Below are positions 5,891-10,205 of a stretch of DNA of 10,205 bases, one piece after another. Origin of the DNA: Clostridia bacterium. GTDB lineage: Bacteria; Bacillota; Clostridia; Oscillospirales; CAG-272. Made by a program: the position numbers and the translations under genes. The notes below the pieces were generated by a model, which searched no databases, was not told the DNA's origin, and was given only the letters and a program-made list of their open reading frames with translations. The stretch spans positions 1 through 10,205 of the forward strand of contig JAFQPC010000034.1 of NCBI GenBank assembly GCA_017411935.1. Reading direction: 5' to 3'. Within the stretch, counting starts at the first letter, position 1, and each line of letters opens with the position of its first letter.

Positions 5891-5919
5891 TTGACAAAAC
5901 TGTATCAACTGTGTATAAT
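5891..5919 (+). promoter_or_regulatory. Consensus sigma-A promoter of the gntR-ABC operon
   Basis: A perfect TTGACA (5891-5896), a 17-bp spacer and a perfect TATAAT (5914-5919) form the strongest promoter in the window. A second TATAAT overlaps it at 5919-5924. Such a strong promoter suggests dependence on repression by the first gene product. Confidence 0.93.
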
Positions 5920-5934
5920 ATAATATATACAGTT
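5907..5934. promoter_or_regulatory. Probable GntR (YtrA-type) operator over the -10 region and start site
   Basis: This 28-bp imperfect palindrome has half-sites AACTGTGTATAATA and TAATATATACAGTT that match at 12 of 14 positions when one is reverse-complemented. It covers the -10 element and the expected transcription start, where bound repressor would block RNA polymerase. A further copy of the half-site, AACTGTAT, sits at 5898-5905 in direct orientation, 9 bp upstream. Assignment to the adjacent GntR protein is inference from position. Confidence 0.65.
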
Positions 5935-5937
5935 AAT

Positions 5938-5947
5938 GGAGGTGATC
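5938..5947 (+). promoter_or_regulatory. Ribosome binding site with extended anti-Shine-Dalgarno match
   Basis: GGAGGTGATC is complementary to ten consecutive bases at the 3' end of 16S rRNA. It is placed ideally for GTG 5950 and rules out the in-frame GTG at 5911, which lies inside the -10 element. Confidence 0.88.
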
Positions 5948-5949
5948 GA

Positions 5950-6327
5950 GTGACGATTTTTATTGACAATAAGAACGGAGAGCCGATTTATAATCAGATT
6001 TATTCTCAGATCAAATATCAAATTCTTAGCGGTAGTTTAAAGCCTGATGAAATGCTTCCGTCGATCCGAGGACTTGCCAAGGATCTTCGCATCAGCTTTA
6101 TTACGACCAAACGAGCCTACGAGGAGCTTGAAAAGGAAGGGTTCATTTATACCATTCCTGCGAAAGGATGCTATGTTTCGCCTCAAAATTTGGAGCTTGT
6201 GCGCGAAGAAAATCTCAAAAAGATCGAGGGATACCTCTCAGAGATCAAAAGGCTCTCGGTGTCGTGTAACCTGAAAAAAGAAGACTTGATCGAGATGATT
6301 CAATTTGAATGGGAGGAAGAAGAATGA
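5950..6327 (+). CDS. GntR-family transcriptional repressor, YtrA subfamily
   Basis: Starting at GTG 5950, this is 125 residues, typical of the short YtrA subfamily. The N-terminal winged helix is complete: GEPIYNQIYSQIKYQILSG, then LPSIRGLAKDLRISFITTKRAYEELEKEG containing the helix-turn-helix, then the wing ending in KGCYVS. The remaining roughly 50 residues are charged and helical (EENLKKIEGYLSEIKRL), matching the small YtrA dimerisation region without a large effector domain. Such proteins commonly repress adjacent ABC exporter genes, often those induced by cell-wall-active peptides, although the inducer cannot be read from sequence. The stop overlaps the ATPase start by 4 nt. It probably autoregulates the operon through the palindrome over its promoter. 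Confidence 0.93.
   Translation: MTIFIDNKNGEPIYNQIYSQIKYQILSGSLKPDEMLPSIRGLAKDLRISFITTKRAYEELEKEGFIYTIPAKGCYVSPQNLELVREENLKKIEGYLSEIKRLSVSCNLKKEDLIEMIQFEWEEEE
6311..6317 (+). promoter_or_regulatory. Ribosome binding site that fixes the ABC ATPase start
   Basis: GGGAGGA lies 6-7 nt before ATG 6324. The in-frame ATG at 6309 would overlap this site and lacks one of its own, so ATG 6324 is preferred. The site lies within the 3' end of the gntR gene. Confidence 0.8.
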
Positions 6328-7163
6328 ACGCATTGGAAATTAAAGATTTAAAATTAAAAAACGGTAGTTTCGAATTTGGAGAGATGACGCTGACGCTCCC
6401 CGGCGGTTGTATTATGGGACTTGTAGGGGAAAACGGCGCAGGGAAGACGACGCTGATTTATTTGATTCTGGATATTTTTCATAAAGATCGCGGAAGTGTT
6501 TTGATTTTTGGACGAAAAAAGAATTTGAATTTAACAAAGCAAGAGATCGGTGTAGTTACCGACGAAGTGGGGATTCCCCAATGTATGACGGCAAAGCAGG
6601 TGGGGAAGATGATGAAACATACCTTTTCTCATTGGAATGACGCCGAATATACACGCCTGCTTCAAAAGCTCTCTGTCCCGGAAAATACTGCTTTTGAGCG
6701 CTTTTCTCGCGGAATGAAGACCAAGCTTGGCATTGCGATTGCGCTGTCTCACAACGCAAAATTATTGATTCTGGACGAACCGATGAACGGTCTTGATCCG
6801 ATCGCTCGTGATGAGGTATTGACGCTCCTATATGAATTTACCAGAGATGAAACGCATTCGGTTCTGATTTCCTCGCATCTTGTGGGCGATCTCGAAAAGC
6901 TCTGCGATTATATTGCGTTTTTACACAAAGGAAAATTGTTGCTTTGTGAAGAAAAAGATGCGCTTTTGGAAGAATACGGAATGATCCATTGTTCGGCAGA
7001 GGAGCTTTCCGCGATGGATCAGAATACGGTCAAATACAAAAGAGAAACGCCTTACGGAATGGACGTGATTATGGCGCGCCGTGAGATTCCGTCGGAATAT
7101 ACGGTCACCCCGATCACCATTGAGGAACTGTTCGTATTTATGGCAAAGGAGGAAGTACAATGA
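6324..7163 (+). CDS. ABC transporter ATP-binding protein (YtrB/BcrA-like)
   Basis: This 279-residue ABC ATPase has Walker A GENGAGKTT (35-43), the signature FSRGMKTKL (127-135), Walker B LLILDEP (147-153), D-loop GLDP (156-159) and switch histidine in SSH (183-185). The signature differs from LSGGQ in the way usual for ABC-2-type exporter ATPases. The C-terminal 70 residues are a less conserved extension. Its partner is the ABC-2 permease that follows with a 4-nt overlap, and its regulator precedes it with a 4-nt overlap. The gntR-ATPase-permease order is typical of small Firmicutes export or resistance modules (YtrAB-like), so export or sensing of a peptide or lipid-targeting compound is plausible. 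The substrate is unknown. Confidence 0.95.
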   Translation: MNALEIKDLKLKNGSFEFGEMTLTLPGGCIMGLVGENGAGKTTLIYLILDIFHKDRGSVLIFGRKKNLNLTKQEIGVVTDEVGIPQCMTAKQVGKMMKHTFSHWNDAEYTRLLQKLSVPENTAFERFSRGMKTKLGIAIALSHNAKLLILDEPMNGLDPIARDEVLTLLYEFTRDETHSVLISSHLVGDLEKLCDYIAFLHKGKLLLCEEKDALLEEYGMIHCSAEELSAMDQNTVKYKRETPYGMDVIMARREIPSEYTVTPITIEELFVFMAKEEVQ

Positions 7164-7786
7164 AGGGGCTTTTGTATAAAGATTTTTTGATGGCTTGGAA
7201 ATATTGCAAACTCTATTTGGTGATTGCAGTCATTTTTTTAGCATTGTTCTTTTTCGTGACGGATTATTGGTTTTTCTTTATCTATCCCGGGATTCTTTTT
7301 GGAATGATTCCTGTCAATCTTTTGGCGTATGATGAGCATAGCCGATGGAAAATCTTTGGTTTAACCTTGCCTTTTTCCCGAGCGCAGCTTGTTTCGGTAA
7401 AATATTTGATGGGGCTTCTTCCGGTCACGGCATTTACGGTGTTTGGTTCGGTTGCCTTTGGAATTGTAAAGCTTGCACGGAATAGCTTTTCTTGGTCGGA
7501 TATTGGATTCTTTGCTTTTGGTGTTTTCTTCTTTCCGCTTTTGTGTTCCATGATTTCTTTGCCGATTTCTTTCAGATTCGGAGTGGAAAAGGGAAGAACG
7601 ATTTCGCTTTTCATCGTGGGTGGAGCTTGCGGAATCAGTGTTGTGTACAATGTGTTTTTGAAAGATTACTTCACCGTTTCTATGCCAAGCATTACACTGA
7701 CAATTCTTGTAATTGTTGGAGTAATTATTCTTGCGCTCTATGCGCTGTCTTGGAAACTTTCGATTATGTTTTATCAAAAAAGATAA
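7160..7786 (+). CDS. ABC-2 type transporter permease
   Basis: This 208-residue, strongly hydrophobic protein starts MKGLLYKDFLMAWKY, a typical ABC-2 permease opening with a cytoplasmic amphipathic segment. About six membrane spans are visible, at roughly residues 17-34, 36-56, 82-104, 114-136, 147-167 and 177-198. The first cytoplasmic loop, AYDEHSRWKIFGLTLPFSRAQLVSVKY (56-82), is the conserved element of ABC2_membrane_5-like proteins and probably contacts the ATPase. It would dimerise and pair with two copies of the upstream ATPase. AAAGGAGG ends 7 nt before ATG 7160, and the start overlaps the ATPase stop (ATGA). Membrane topology is estimated by eye. Confidence 0.9.
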   Translation: MKGLLYKDFLMAWKYCKLYLVIAVIFLALFFFVTDYWFFFIYPGILFGMIPVNLLAYDEHSRWKIFGLTLPFSRAQLVSVKYLMGLLPVTAFTVFGSVAFGIVKLARNSFSWSDIGFFAFGVFFFPLLCSMISLPISFRFGVEKGRTISLFIVGGACGISVVYNVFLKDYFTVSMPSITLTILVIVGVIILALYALSWKLSIMFYQKR

Positions 7787-7829: not shown

Positions 7830-8618
7830 TTAAAAGCTTTCCAATGATTTATTAAGGAAAGCGCGGGTCAGGGGAGACTGCGGATTTCCGAAGAGTTCTT
7901 CGGGCGTTCCTTGTTCCTCAATGACTCCGTTTGCCATAAAGATGACTTCGTCAGAGACGTTCTTGGCAAATTCCATCTCGTGTGTAACCACGATCATCGT
8001 ACTGTCTGCCGATTTCAGACTCTTAATGACTCGCAAAACCTCTCCTGTGAGCTCTGGGTCGAGCGCCGAGGTGGGTTCGTCAAAGCAGAGAATATCGGGA
8101 GAGAGCGCCAGTGCGCGTGCGATAGCTACACGCTGTTGCTGTCCGCCCGAAAGCTGACAGGGATAAAAATCCGCTTTGTCGGTAAGTCCGACTTTTTCCA
8201 AGAGTTCCCACGCGTTTTTCGTGATCTCTTCGGTTTTTTCCTTGATTTCTTCTTTTGAAAGCTTTTGCTCGGACAGACGCATCAAGGGAGCAAGCGTGAT
8301 GTTATCCAATGCGGTATACTGCGGGAAAAGATTAAAGGATTGGAAAACAAGACCGAAATGCAAACGGTTGTTTCGGATCTCGGCTTCTTTCATCGCTTTA
8401 TCTTTGGTCGCATCAAAAATCACTTTTCCGTCGATCGACATCCTTCCCTCATCGGGAGTTTCCAAGAAGTTCAAGCAACGGAGCAGGGTCGTTTTACCGC
8501 TTCCCGACGATCCGATGATCGAGAGGACACTGCCTTTTTCGAGAGAAAAATCAATTCCTTTTAAGACTTCGGTTTTTCCGAAGCTTTTTTTAATATTTGA
8601 AACTTCAAAAAACGCCAT
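7830..8618 (-). CDS. Polar amino-acid ABC transporter ATP-binding protein (GlnQ type)
   Basis: This 262-residue ATPase of the polar amino-acid uptake (PAAT) family energises import with the neighbouring permease. Motifs are Walker [10 protein letters not shown] (36-44), a Q-loop glutamine in VFQSFNLFP (91-99), signature [15 protein letters not shown] (156-170), Walker B ILCFDEP (176-182), D-loop SALD (184-187), the switch histidine in VTHEM (211-215), and the typical C-terminal [13 protein letters not shown]. Length is close to the usual 240-255, with a slightly longer charged helical region at about 114-136. It starts only 2 nt after the permease stop, with AAGGTG as ribosome binding site, and is the last gene of the operon. 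Substrate specificity cannot be taken from the ATPase. Confidence 0.95.
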
Positions 8619-8620
8619 AG

Positions 8621-9310
8621 TTACACCTTAAAATATCCCAATTTTTTCTCGAGCTTTCCAAGTAAGATCGTGAGCAGACCGTTAATGAGCAGGTAGAAAA
8701 GACCTGCATAGAAGATCGGCCACAAAATTGCCTTGGTATTCACGATGCCTTTTGCTACGGTAAAGAGGTCAAGACGGATAACGACACTCGCGAGTGCGGT
8801 ATCCTTGACAAGGGTGATGATCTCGTTGGACATCGGAGCGACGATTCTCTTGACGACCTGCAAGAAAATGACTTTCGAGAAGGTCTGTGACTTGGTCATG
8901 CCAAGCACTTGCGCCGCCTCGTACTGTCCTGCGGGAATGCTTTGAATTCCGCCTCGATAGATCTCCGAAAAGTAGCAGGCATAGTTGATGCTGAACGCGA
9001 CGCAGACCATAATGAGAAGGGCAACTTCGCCGCGAAGCGCAACGTCAAGCGGAATGCCTATTTTTTGCGCTACGTTGGAAATGCTCGTTGGGAGAAAGAG
9101 GAAGAAAATGATTTGAAGCATCAAAGGTGTTCCTCGGATCACCCAAACGAAAGCGCGAGTGATTGCACTGATGATTTTGAACTTGGATTTAGAACCAAAG
9201 GCAATCAAAAGTCCTAAGGGTAACGCTACTAAGAGCGTTACCCCAAAGATCAACAGGGTATAAAGCAGTCCCTCCAAAAGTTGGAGAGTTACGTTAAAAA
9301 ATAATGACAT
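8621..9310 (-). CDS. Polar amino-acid ABC transporter permease (GlnP/HisM type)
   Basis: This 229-residue membrane protein belongs to the PAAT permease family. It shows RGTPLMLQ (59-66), the ATPase-coupling EAA loop [21 protein letters not shown] (131-151) preceded by [15 protein letters not shown], and about five membrane spans (roughly 12-38, 53-75, 95-117, 157-190, 195-218). It probably forms a homodimer, since only one permease gene is present. It follows the binding-protein gene by 38 nt. No clear Shine-Dalgarno site is visible before ATG 9310 (only an AAAAAGAT-like stretch), so translation may depend on coupling or be weak; the start still fits the family N-terminus best. A perfect hairpin in the mRNA lies at codons 23-31. 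Confidence 0.94.
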
Positions 9311-9348: not shown

Positions 9349-10205
9349 TTATTCCTCTTCTTCTTCGATCTTTACGCAAGCTTCACCGGCAGATCCTGCC
9401 TCAGCACCGATGATGGCTCTGGACATCGAATCGAGGTCGGTGTACTTATCCTTATCCTCAACACGAATGACAGCAACCTGCTTGTTGTTCAGGTAAGGCA
9501 TCGAGATCTCCATATTCGCCTGTCTTTCCTCGGTAATCGTCATACCGTTCCAGATGCAGTCGATGTTCTTGTTCTTCAAAAGGCTTTCCTTGGAATCCCA
9601 GTCGATCTCCTTAAACTCTACTTCAAGATCGAGGACCTCGGCGACAGCCTTCGCAAGCTCAATATCAAAGCCGATCAGCTTGCCGCTATCGTCCTTGTAT
9701 GCGATGGGAGCAAAGAGCGTGTAACCAACGATGAATTTTCCTTGTTCCAAGATATATTCGATGTCTTCCATTTCGGATTCGGTCATTTCTTCAATTTCCA
9801 TATCCTCGTCAATGCAAACCTCGGAGGCGATTCCGTACTTTTCTGCGATTTCCTCAACCGTTCCGTCCTTTGCCAGCACGATCAGCGCGGAGTTGATCGC
9901 TTTTGCGAGTCCGCTGCCTTTTCTTGCAGCAATACCGTACTGTTCTGCTTCGAAATCTACATCTTCTACGATCATAAGCTTGCCGTAGTAGTCAGAATCT
10001 TCCTGACTCAAGTAGTATCCTGCCATGATGCTGTCCATAATGCCGACGTCGATCGACTTGGAGTTCAGCTGTGCAAGAACGTCCATCTGAGCGGAAAGAG
10101 GGGTGTACTTCTTACCGAACTGAAGCTTTTCACCACACGAGGTGAACGAAAGGGTTGCGCCAACCAGCAGAAGCAGAGCAAGCGCCATTGCGAGAATTTT
10201 TTTCA
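9349..10205 (-). CDS. Circularly permuted family-3 solute-binding lipoprotein (amino-acid uptake), start just outside window
   Basis: The frame is open to the window edge, whose last two bases fit NTG, so the start is probably one base outside. Full length would be 285 residues beginning MKKILAM (numbering used here). A hydrophobic signal peptide ends in SFTSC, with Cys24 the likely lipidated residue; Phe at -3 is unusual. The mature blocks are in permuted order. Residues 34-126 match the normal C-terminal half (LSAQMDVLAQLNSKSIDVGIMDS, EQYGIAARKGS, KDGTVEEIAEKYGIA). Residues 127-155 are an acidic linker, and 156-285 match the normal N-terminal half (GKFIVGYTLFAPIAYKD, LIGFDIELAKAVAE, NGMTITEER, GAEAGSAGEA). 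The protein ends in a short Glu run. Expected amino-acid-contact residues are kept: Arg228 (as GlnH Arg75) and Asp58 (as GlnH Asp157). It should deliver amino acids to the adjacent permease. Confidence 0.9.
   Translation of the reverse strand, partial: KKILAMALALLLLVGATLSFTSCGEKLQFGKKYTPLSAQMDVLAQLNSKSIDVGIMDSIMAGYYLSQEDSDYYGKLMIVEDVDFEAEQYGIAARKGSGLAKAINSALIVLAKDGTVEEIAEKYGIASEVCIDEDMEIEEMTESEMEDIEYILEQGKFIVGYTLFAPIAYKDDSGKLIGFDIELAKAVAEVLDLEVEFKEIDWDSKESLLKNKNIDCIWNGMTITEERQANMEISMPYLNNKQVAVIRVEDKDKYTDLDSMSRAIIGAEAGSAGEACVKIEEEEE

Follow-up and report, generated by a model that had tools for sequence, protein, structure and literature searches.

The gene at the end of the window (the whole stretch of DNA that we analyzed, 10,205 nucleotides) encodes a class A protein, as we call its order, that is very probably a naturally permuted binding protein of a polar-amino-acid-type ABC importer, and one member of an SBP_bac_3 radiation that has been recurrently re-cut, most likely by way of tandem fusion. 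The predicted product begins with a signal peptide ending in Cys23, continues through a short spacer, and then carries its C-terminal half ahead of its N-terminal half, the reverse of the usual family-3 order. Features of family 3 are nonetheless present: a significant match to PF00497 (SBP_bac_3; E 2.8e-30, 105.2 bits against a cut-off of 26.4, best stretch 9-95 of the 132 profile positions), an arginine in the motif NGMTxTxER and an aspartate in the motif IMD, which we take to be the ligand residues by analogy with GlnH and HisJ. The PF00497 match is confined to the second block of the protein, and this is the only Pfam family that it matches. Judged by its sequence, the protein is a permuted variant of family 3 by descent; linear order is not part of the definition of homology in this family.

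The source contig (G000:C3), from a gut Clostridia bacterium, belongs to a genome assembly of 1.30 Mb in 217 contigs that is 67% complete, and it ends 2 bases upstream of the gene, such that the TG of the presumed ATG forms its final bases and the first base of the codon lies off the contig. The features of the gene and its operon are as follows.

9349..10203, minus strand: circularly permuted family-3 solute-binding lipoprotein gene (284 visible codons plus stop)
10135..10203, minus strand: signal peptide, with lipobox Cys23 as its last residue (from the sequence; C23 invariant in alignment A1 of 95 rows; helix 2-21 in the model)
9820..10116, minus strand: moved block, approximately core columns 128-228 (remaining lobe 2, second crossover and C-terminal helices; inner boundary approximate)
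10033..10035, minus strand: putative ligand residue Asp57, core column 155 (from the alignment)
9754..9819, minus strand: junction linker from the old C terminus to the old N terminus (boundaries approximate)
9364..9753, minus strand: normally N-terminal block, core columns 1-126 (from lobe 1 strand 1 to the GSAGE helix, lobe 2; from the doubled profile)
9523..9525, minus strand: putative ligand residue Arg227, core column 73 (from the alignment)
9352..9363, minus strand: acidic C-terminal tail EEEE (low model confidence)
8621..9310, minus strand: permease of the same operon (Pfam BPD_transp_1)
7830..8618, minus strand: ATPase of the same operon (Pfam ABC_tran)

The Pfam matches bear out an earlier reading of this DNA from its letters alone (the sequence-only reading), which had placed an ordinary permease and ATPase next to the binding-protein gene; both lie downstream of it on the same strand. 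Elsewhere in the window, positions 5911-7786 carry, on the strand opposite the importer operon, a regulator (presumably GntR-like from its look) followed by an ABC ATPase (Pfam) and a membrane protein, and a large open frame of 494 aa occupies positions 648-2132 on the minus strand.

To place the blocks, we made a core profile of 228 columns from 26 relatives of normal order and joined two copies of it head to tail (the doubled profile), which lets a start and an end column be read for any cyclic order. Normal-order relatives run from about column 1 to about column 225 of this profile, and the window protein aligns to columns 128-228, then the junction, then columns 1-126, giving a start at 128 and an end at 126. 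This result agrees with the sequence-only reading, which had proposed that the C-terminal blocks precede the N-terminal ones and that each block is present once. At the junction the two profile matches do overlap briefly. The cut, in lobe 2, separates the GSAGE helix from the following strand, and the structural model places the termini where that reading had put them, between the GSAGEACVK helix (H272-277 in the model) and the KKYTPLSAQ strand (E32-36). At the junction, which in class A proteins has a median of about 20 residues beyond the core, the residues past the old C terminus, EKYGIASEVCID, continue into EMEDIEYILEQGKFIVGYT, which looks like the mature N terminus of normal-order relatives. 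Reading through the window gene, we found at the junction no stop, frameshift or second signal peptide, such as a misjoin would be likely to leave behind, and the frame is intact, as had been claimed.

A gene at the very end of a contig, in a genome that is 67% complete, could be the product of a misjoin between tandem binding-protein genes, or of binning, and the homologues do include one probable chimera. However, among homologues of 61-92% identity, 119 of the 120 listed (3821 matched in all) share both the permuted order and the junction; the remaining one, P0117, is a multi-domain protein. The window's gene also occurs in the same order, at 67-86% identity, in 6 of 29 congeneric genomes (G027, G017, G014, G003, G004 and G019). 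As homologues of the same order come from several sources, chance and misjoining are excluded, and we give an assembly or binning artefact practically no weight. The outcome in which all close homologues have normal order is likewise contradicted, and the suggestion of a natural permutation is upheld. One class A gene, L004, is found in a record titled Bacilli bacterium; this placement could be a transfer or a binning error. Pairwise dN/dS, where dS is unsaturated, ranged from 0.09 to 0.34 among nine class A genes and from 0.06 to 0.35 among seven class B genes (a second permuted order, described below), values that are rough because dS is high. By these estimates the window gene is under purifying selection along its length, again unlike the expectation for a misjoin.

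We used an AlphaFold model of the window protein to ask whether the permuted chain closes into one domain. The model is a confident single domain (pLDDT 92.3, pTM 0.83), and the protein is predicted to fold as the usual two-lobed clamp (Type II). In order-dependent structure searches the model aligns chiefly over its N-lobe part, and the handful of longer Foldseek matches are of low quality (for example 4h1x, TMq 0.43, 6.7 A), so closure of class A rests on this AlphaFold confidence. The top VIA match, 5jkq (PfVFT1 of Plasmodium; 179 residues, 4.4 A, 12% identity), is the only one of the 50 matches listed to reach the class A C-terminal helices and linker, and it may itself be of B-like order, which we regard as a lead. 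Among the structure matches listed there was no family-3 structure of permuted order, an absence that proves nothing. R227, D57 and C23 are invariant in alignment A1, which holds 95 diverse class A sequences, and a lipobox pattern is present in 211 of 212 class A rows. The arginine and aspartate are those that the sequence-only reading had reported as kept under the numbers Arg228 and Asp58, the difference being the missing Met.

Relatives of the window protein, as aligned to the doubled profile, exhibit at least three cut sites beyond that of class A, which we designate B, C and D; neither these nor the end of the contig could be seen by the sequence-only reading. Class B proteins mostly start near columns 161-173 and end near 164, at the end of lobe 2 and just ahead of the second crossover; class C proteins start near 17-21 and end near 16, past strand 1 of lobe 1; and class D proteins start near 97-121 and end near 91-100 as far as the profile reaches, in the hinge ahead of lobe 2 (the divergent L192 ends at column 70). 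The 364 proteins that we classed, a biased set made up of 360 that three permuted-query searches listed and four that we translated, comprised 199 of class A, 39 of class B, 113 of class C, 6 of normal order, 3 multi-domain proteins and 4 fragments. On the basis of their end columns, we assigned seven proteins labelled "other" and nine labelled "partial" to class A; a strand-1 motif at the C terminus put 26 proteins with the labels "normal", "other" or "multi" into class C; and L010 and P0269 (class B), L073 (class D), and L069 and L030 (normal) were assigned by hand. Class D was initially represented by a single gene, L073, which has a permease after its stop, and was then found in five more genomes (L091, L095, L096, L097 and L098), in a PF00497 census described below (L151, L155 and L156), elsewhere in the phylum (L188 and L192) and in the window's genus (L201).

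The conserved residues, the operon context and purifying selection together point to a working receptor, with lipid attachment probably next to lobe 2. A permease and an ATPase related to those of the window adjoin the gene at 24 of 24 permuted loci in our first set, where L001 and L062 were counted once and a named and an unnamed locus may in some cases come from the same genome. Among 17 further permuted loci, 13 have both genes, two have the permease only and two, in short stretches, have neither. These last two, L094 and L099 (both class B, from G188), could be seen as favoring a decaying or neofunctionalized protein that has lost its role in uptake, as could the absence of the arginine from 22 of 57 class B rows and 34 of 63 normal-order rows. 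We consider such a loss of function very improbable given the low dN/dS, the invariant ligand residues of class A and the transporter genes at every locus of the first set. Because the arginine is missing from so many class B and normal rows, the ligands probably differ among the groups.

The position of the anchor raises a separate question, as cuts may have been selected for shifting the tether off lobe 1 and onto lobe 2, similar to the tethering idea put forward for TpMglB-2 (see below). Classes A and D do place the anchor next to lobe 2, and the median linkers from the cysteine to the core (12 residues in A, 9 in B and 7 in C, versus 16 in normal proteins) are in line with this idea, although these medians are rough and the reference columns differ. 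On the other hand, no single anchor position is favored, because class C keeps its anchor at lobe 1 and that of class B lies near the crossover; L094 has an apparent membrane helix in place of a lipobox, and P0185 and L011 are possible reversals to normal order. An adaptive relocation of the anchor therefore strikes us as unlikely to be the cause of the cuts. The L094 frame (102-1109, the same as L118) has a long acidic spacer as well as the apparent N-terminal membrane helix.

To assess how common permuted genes are, we searched 391 genomes of the window's taxonomic class with the window protein (E <= 1e-40). Besides its own genome, 19 matched, 16 with a permuted gene (4 class A, 7 class B, 5 class D) and 3 with normal order, and the 16 span eight families other than the window's. 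In f23, the family of one of these genomes, searched with a class B query (E <= 1e-50), 12 of 16 genomes matched (8 class B, 1 class D, 3 normal). A census that was not seeded by a permuted protein used PF00497 on 31 genomes of the same taxonomic class, one per family (75 matches, with 30 loci returned and ten further regions, mostly partial matches, examined); unexamined matches were taken as normal if collinear over most of the profile, and a few short ones were left unclassed. Counted in this way, eight permuted genes occur in 5 of the 31 genomes, including the window's own: one class A gene in G000, two class B and one class D in G188, one class B and one class D in G200, one class B in G177 and one class D in G181. 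The second class B gene of G188, L094, was classed within the E <= 1e-40 survey, and several of the census genes are of subfamilies other than the window's. When PF00497 was applied likewise to 41 genomes of the phylum, 87 matches, with 11 examined regions, yielded besides the gene of G000 two permuted lipoproteins, L188 and L192, and a frame, L190, that is cut by its contig end and has C and N blocks continuing into a permease. Both PF00497 samples are small. Within the window's genus, we examined 12 further genomes, and in 9 of them the weaker matches turned out to be permuted paralogues from other subfamilies, eight of class B (L199, L200 and L202-L207) and one of class D (L201). Together with the six genomes that have the window's gene itself, this makes at least 15 of 29 congeneric genomes with a permuted binding protein; five of the 29 gave no match in the search, and the classed matches of the remainder are of normal order, their weak matches having been classed in part.

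We next consider whether each order arose once. In a binding-protein tree of 101 rows and 210 columns, the five orders require 10 changes, and a tree of 93 rows that draws on more loci requires 14 against a minimum of 4, with its starred branches forcing at least four changes for A, four for B, five for C and two for D. No single origin of A, B, C or D was recovered in any of 200 bootstrap trees, and AU tests rejected both class B as one clade (p 1.1e-39) and all permuted forms as one clade (p 1.1e-5). Trees built from each half give the same kind of result (N half, 16 changes; C half, 13) and resolve few branches. As the cut of class C falls in columns 1-18, these were omitted from the binding-protein trees. 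Near-duplicates, the fragments P0217, P0219, P0234 and P0275, the multi-domain proteins P0117, P0218 and P0270, and the outliers L031 and L032 were dropped ahead of the counts; the careful trees are without the long branches L030 and L074; and all trees exclude the nine permuted genes found late in the genus and those first found in the two PF00497 looks.

The permease, which is not itself permuted, is a separate witness to these changes. A tree of 84 permeases labelled by the order of their binding proteins (without L002, L003, L030-L032, L062 and loci lacking a nearby permease) requires 10 changes and puts class B in five places (bootstrap range 5-5). Some branches of this tree are long and flagged as meeting, and its starred branches alone force only two changes each for A, B and D. 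That last count, the weak deep forks of trees built on 210-217 columns and the fact that transfer of transport operons is common would fit a history in which every cut has a single origin and was carried further by horizontal transfer of entire operons, with the interleaving due to transfer and tree error. Yet an operon that moves takes its own binding protein with it, which leaves unexplained how one cut class comes to lie beside different normal proteins. Class D L098, for example, is nearest to normal L026 (62%), and the nearest normal protein to class D L091 is L079 (66%). Taken with the AU tests and the five places of class B, this makes single origins followed by transfer improbable in our estimation.

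Closer pairs of unlike order exist: over shared core columns, normal P0185 and class C P0180 are 82% identical, and normal P0236 and class B P0239 are 72% identical over the core. The normal protein P0185 (on a contig of only 1016 bases) lies inside class C and normal L011 beside class A and C rows, and both may be returns to normal order, gain and loss being inseparable in these trees. Repeated re-cutting is the reading that we prefer, as the interleaving of normal and permuted forms in the sequence trees suggests that the same family has been re-cut repeatedly at about four places.

We propose that the likely route to permutation is tandem fusion. In-frame fusion of tandem copies would yield an N-C-N-C array, which would then shed leading and trailing pieces while the signal peptide is retained. 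Several fused forms argue for such a route. P0218, of 505 residues, has the order N-C-N-C with copies that are 75% identical, and L083, of 627 residues, has the order C-N-C-N-C. An array related to L083, L082 (G027:C47), ends in C-N fused to a permease and contains an in-frame TAG around 2851-2853, between two otherwise continuous frames of a multi-domain binding-protein/permease gene. In L084 (238-1833) and L085 (1675-3300), a binding domain of class B order is fused directly to a permease, unlike the GlnPQ fusions, which have normal-order binding domains. In the solved GlnPQ tandem 6h30, too, a single match to the class A profile spans two domains (query 26-278, chain 127-358). Counting against the fusion route, half-way forms are scarce in the window's own subfamily. 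P0270 (C-N-C plus strand 1, with C copies 39% identical) makes a weak case as an intermediate and may be cut by its contig end. P0117, at first sight the clearest candidate for an intermediate (C-N-C), was rejected; it has a class A front and is probably a chimeric contig, because its rear part and the normal protein L079, from another genome, are 100% identical.

The resulting model is of a lipid-anchored class A protein with new termini in lobe 2 and the old termini joined by a linker. An amino-acid-like ligand would be held between the lobes by the conserved Arg and Asp and handed to the permease encoded next to the binding-protein gene. The radiation to which this protein belongs is centered on Clostridia, and its chain would have been re-cut at a few loops (A, B, C and D), sometimes perhaps reverting. 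We lean, with less assurance than for the class A protein itself, towards a broader picture in which family-3 proteins of Bacillota, above all Clostridia, are in continual circular flux among normal, A, B, C and D orders, with about a dozen permutations having passed through fused arrays.

Natural circular permutation is usually regarded as a rare event and an old one in the history of a family. Because several cut sites occur here together with fairly close normal relatives (72-82% identity in two pairs), it becomes possible to test directly how permutation comes about, what it costs and which cut points are tolerated. The set is a natural experiment in re-wiring a chain without loss of function, and if the circular flux is true, it displays the chain breaks that a two-lobed receptor tolerates in evolution. 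These natural cut sites are on offer for the engineering of permuted amino-acid sensors. For annotation, a Pfam profile reports part of a permuted domain only. The set also bears on how anchor position affects delivery to an ABC importer, a question left by TpMglB-2.

In the open-access literature that we searched, neither permuted family-3 proteins nor recurrent permutation turned up, and the only natural permuted binding protein that we found is TpMglB-2 (Tp0684) of Treponema pallidum. TpMglB-2 has a solved structure and binds glucose, its relatives occur in treponemes and in Gram-positives, many of them gut commensals, and its authors proposed a permuted subclass, "Type Ic / Cluster Bc", with tethering as a possible reason (PMC4990184). 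The window protein resembles it in being a naturally permuted, lipid-anchored binding protein of an ABC importer. It falls outside that subclass by its Pfam match to PF00497 and no other family. Engineered binding-protein sensors and switches share the scaffold and use circular permutation or domain insertion, but are designed rather than natural. The Type I/Type II domain dislocation (Fukami-Kobayashi 1999, as cited in PMC9815098) also rearranged chain connectivity in binding proteins, but as an ancient exchange of elements between lobes and not as circular permutation of a recent protein. GlnH, HisJ, ArgBP and AncQR (PF00497) are homologous to the window protein in both halves and share the ligand Arg and Asp. 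Solved family-3 proteins differ in order, with the window's second block at the front of the chain (in the best 60 of 105 and the best 60 of 310 matches; 4zv1 alone was viewed residue by residue), the exception being the tandem 6h30 in the best 60 of 310. This GlnPQ tandem, SBD1-SBD2, is alike in that its fused array contains a C-then-N register; however, it presumably consists of two complete domains of normal order, with no stand-alone permuted unit. TpMglB-2 itself has a Type I/Cluster B sugar fold, a single described permutation and a fourth hinge crossover, whereas the permuted set described here belongs to family 3, with at least four cut sites and repeated origins (PMC4990184). Natural permuted binding proteins were already known; what appears to be new is their occurrence in the family-3 fold class, at several cut sites and recurrently.
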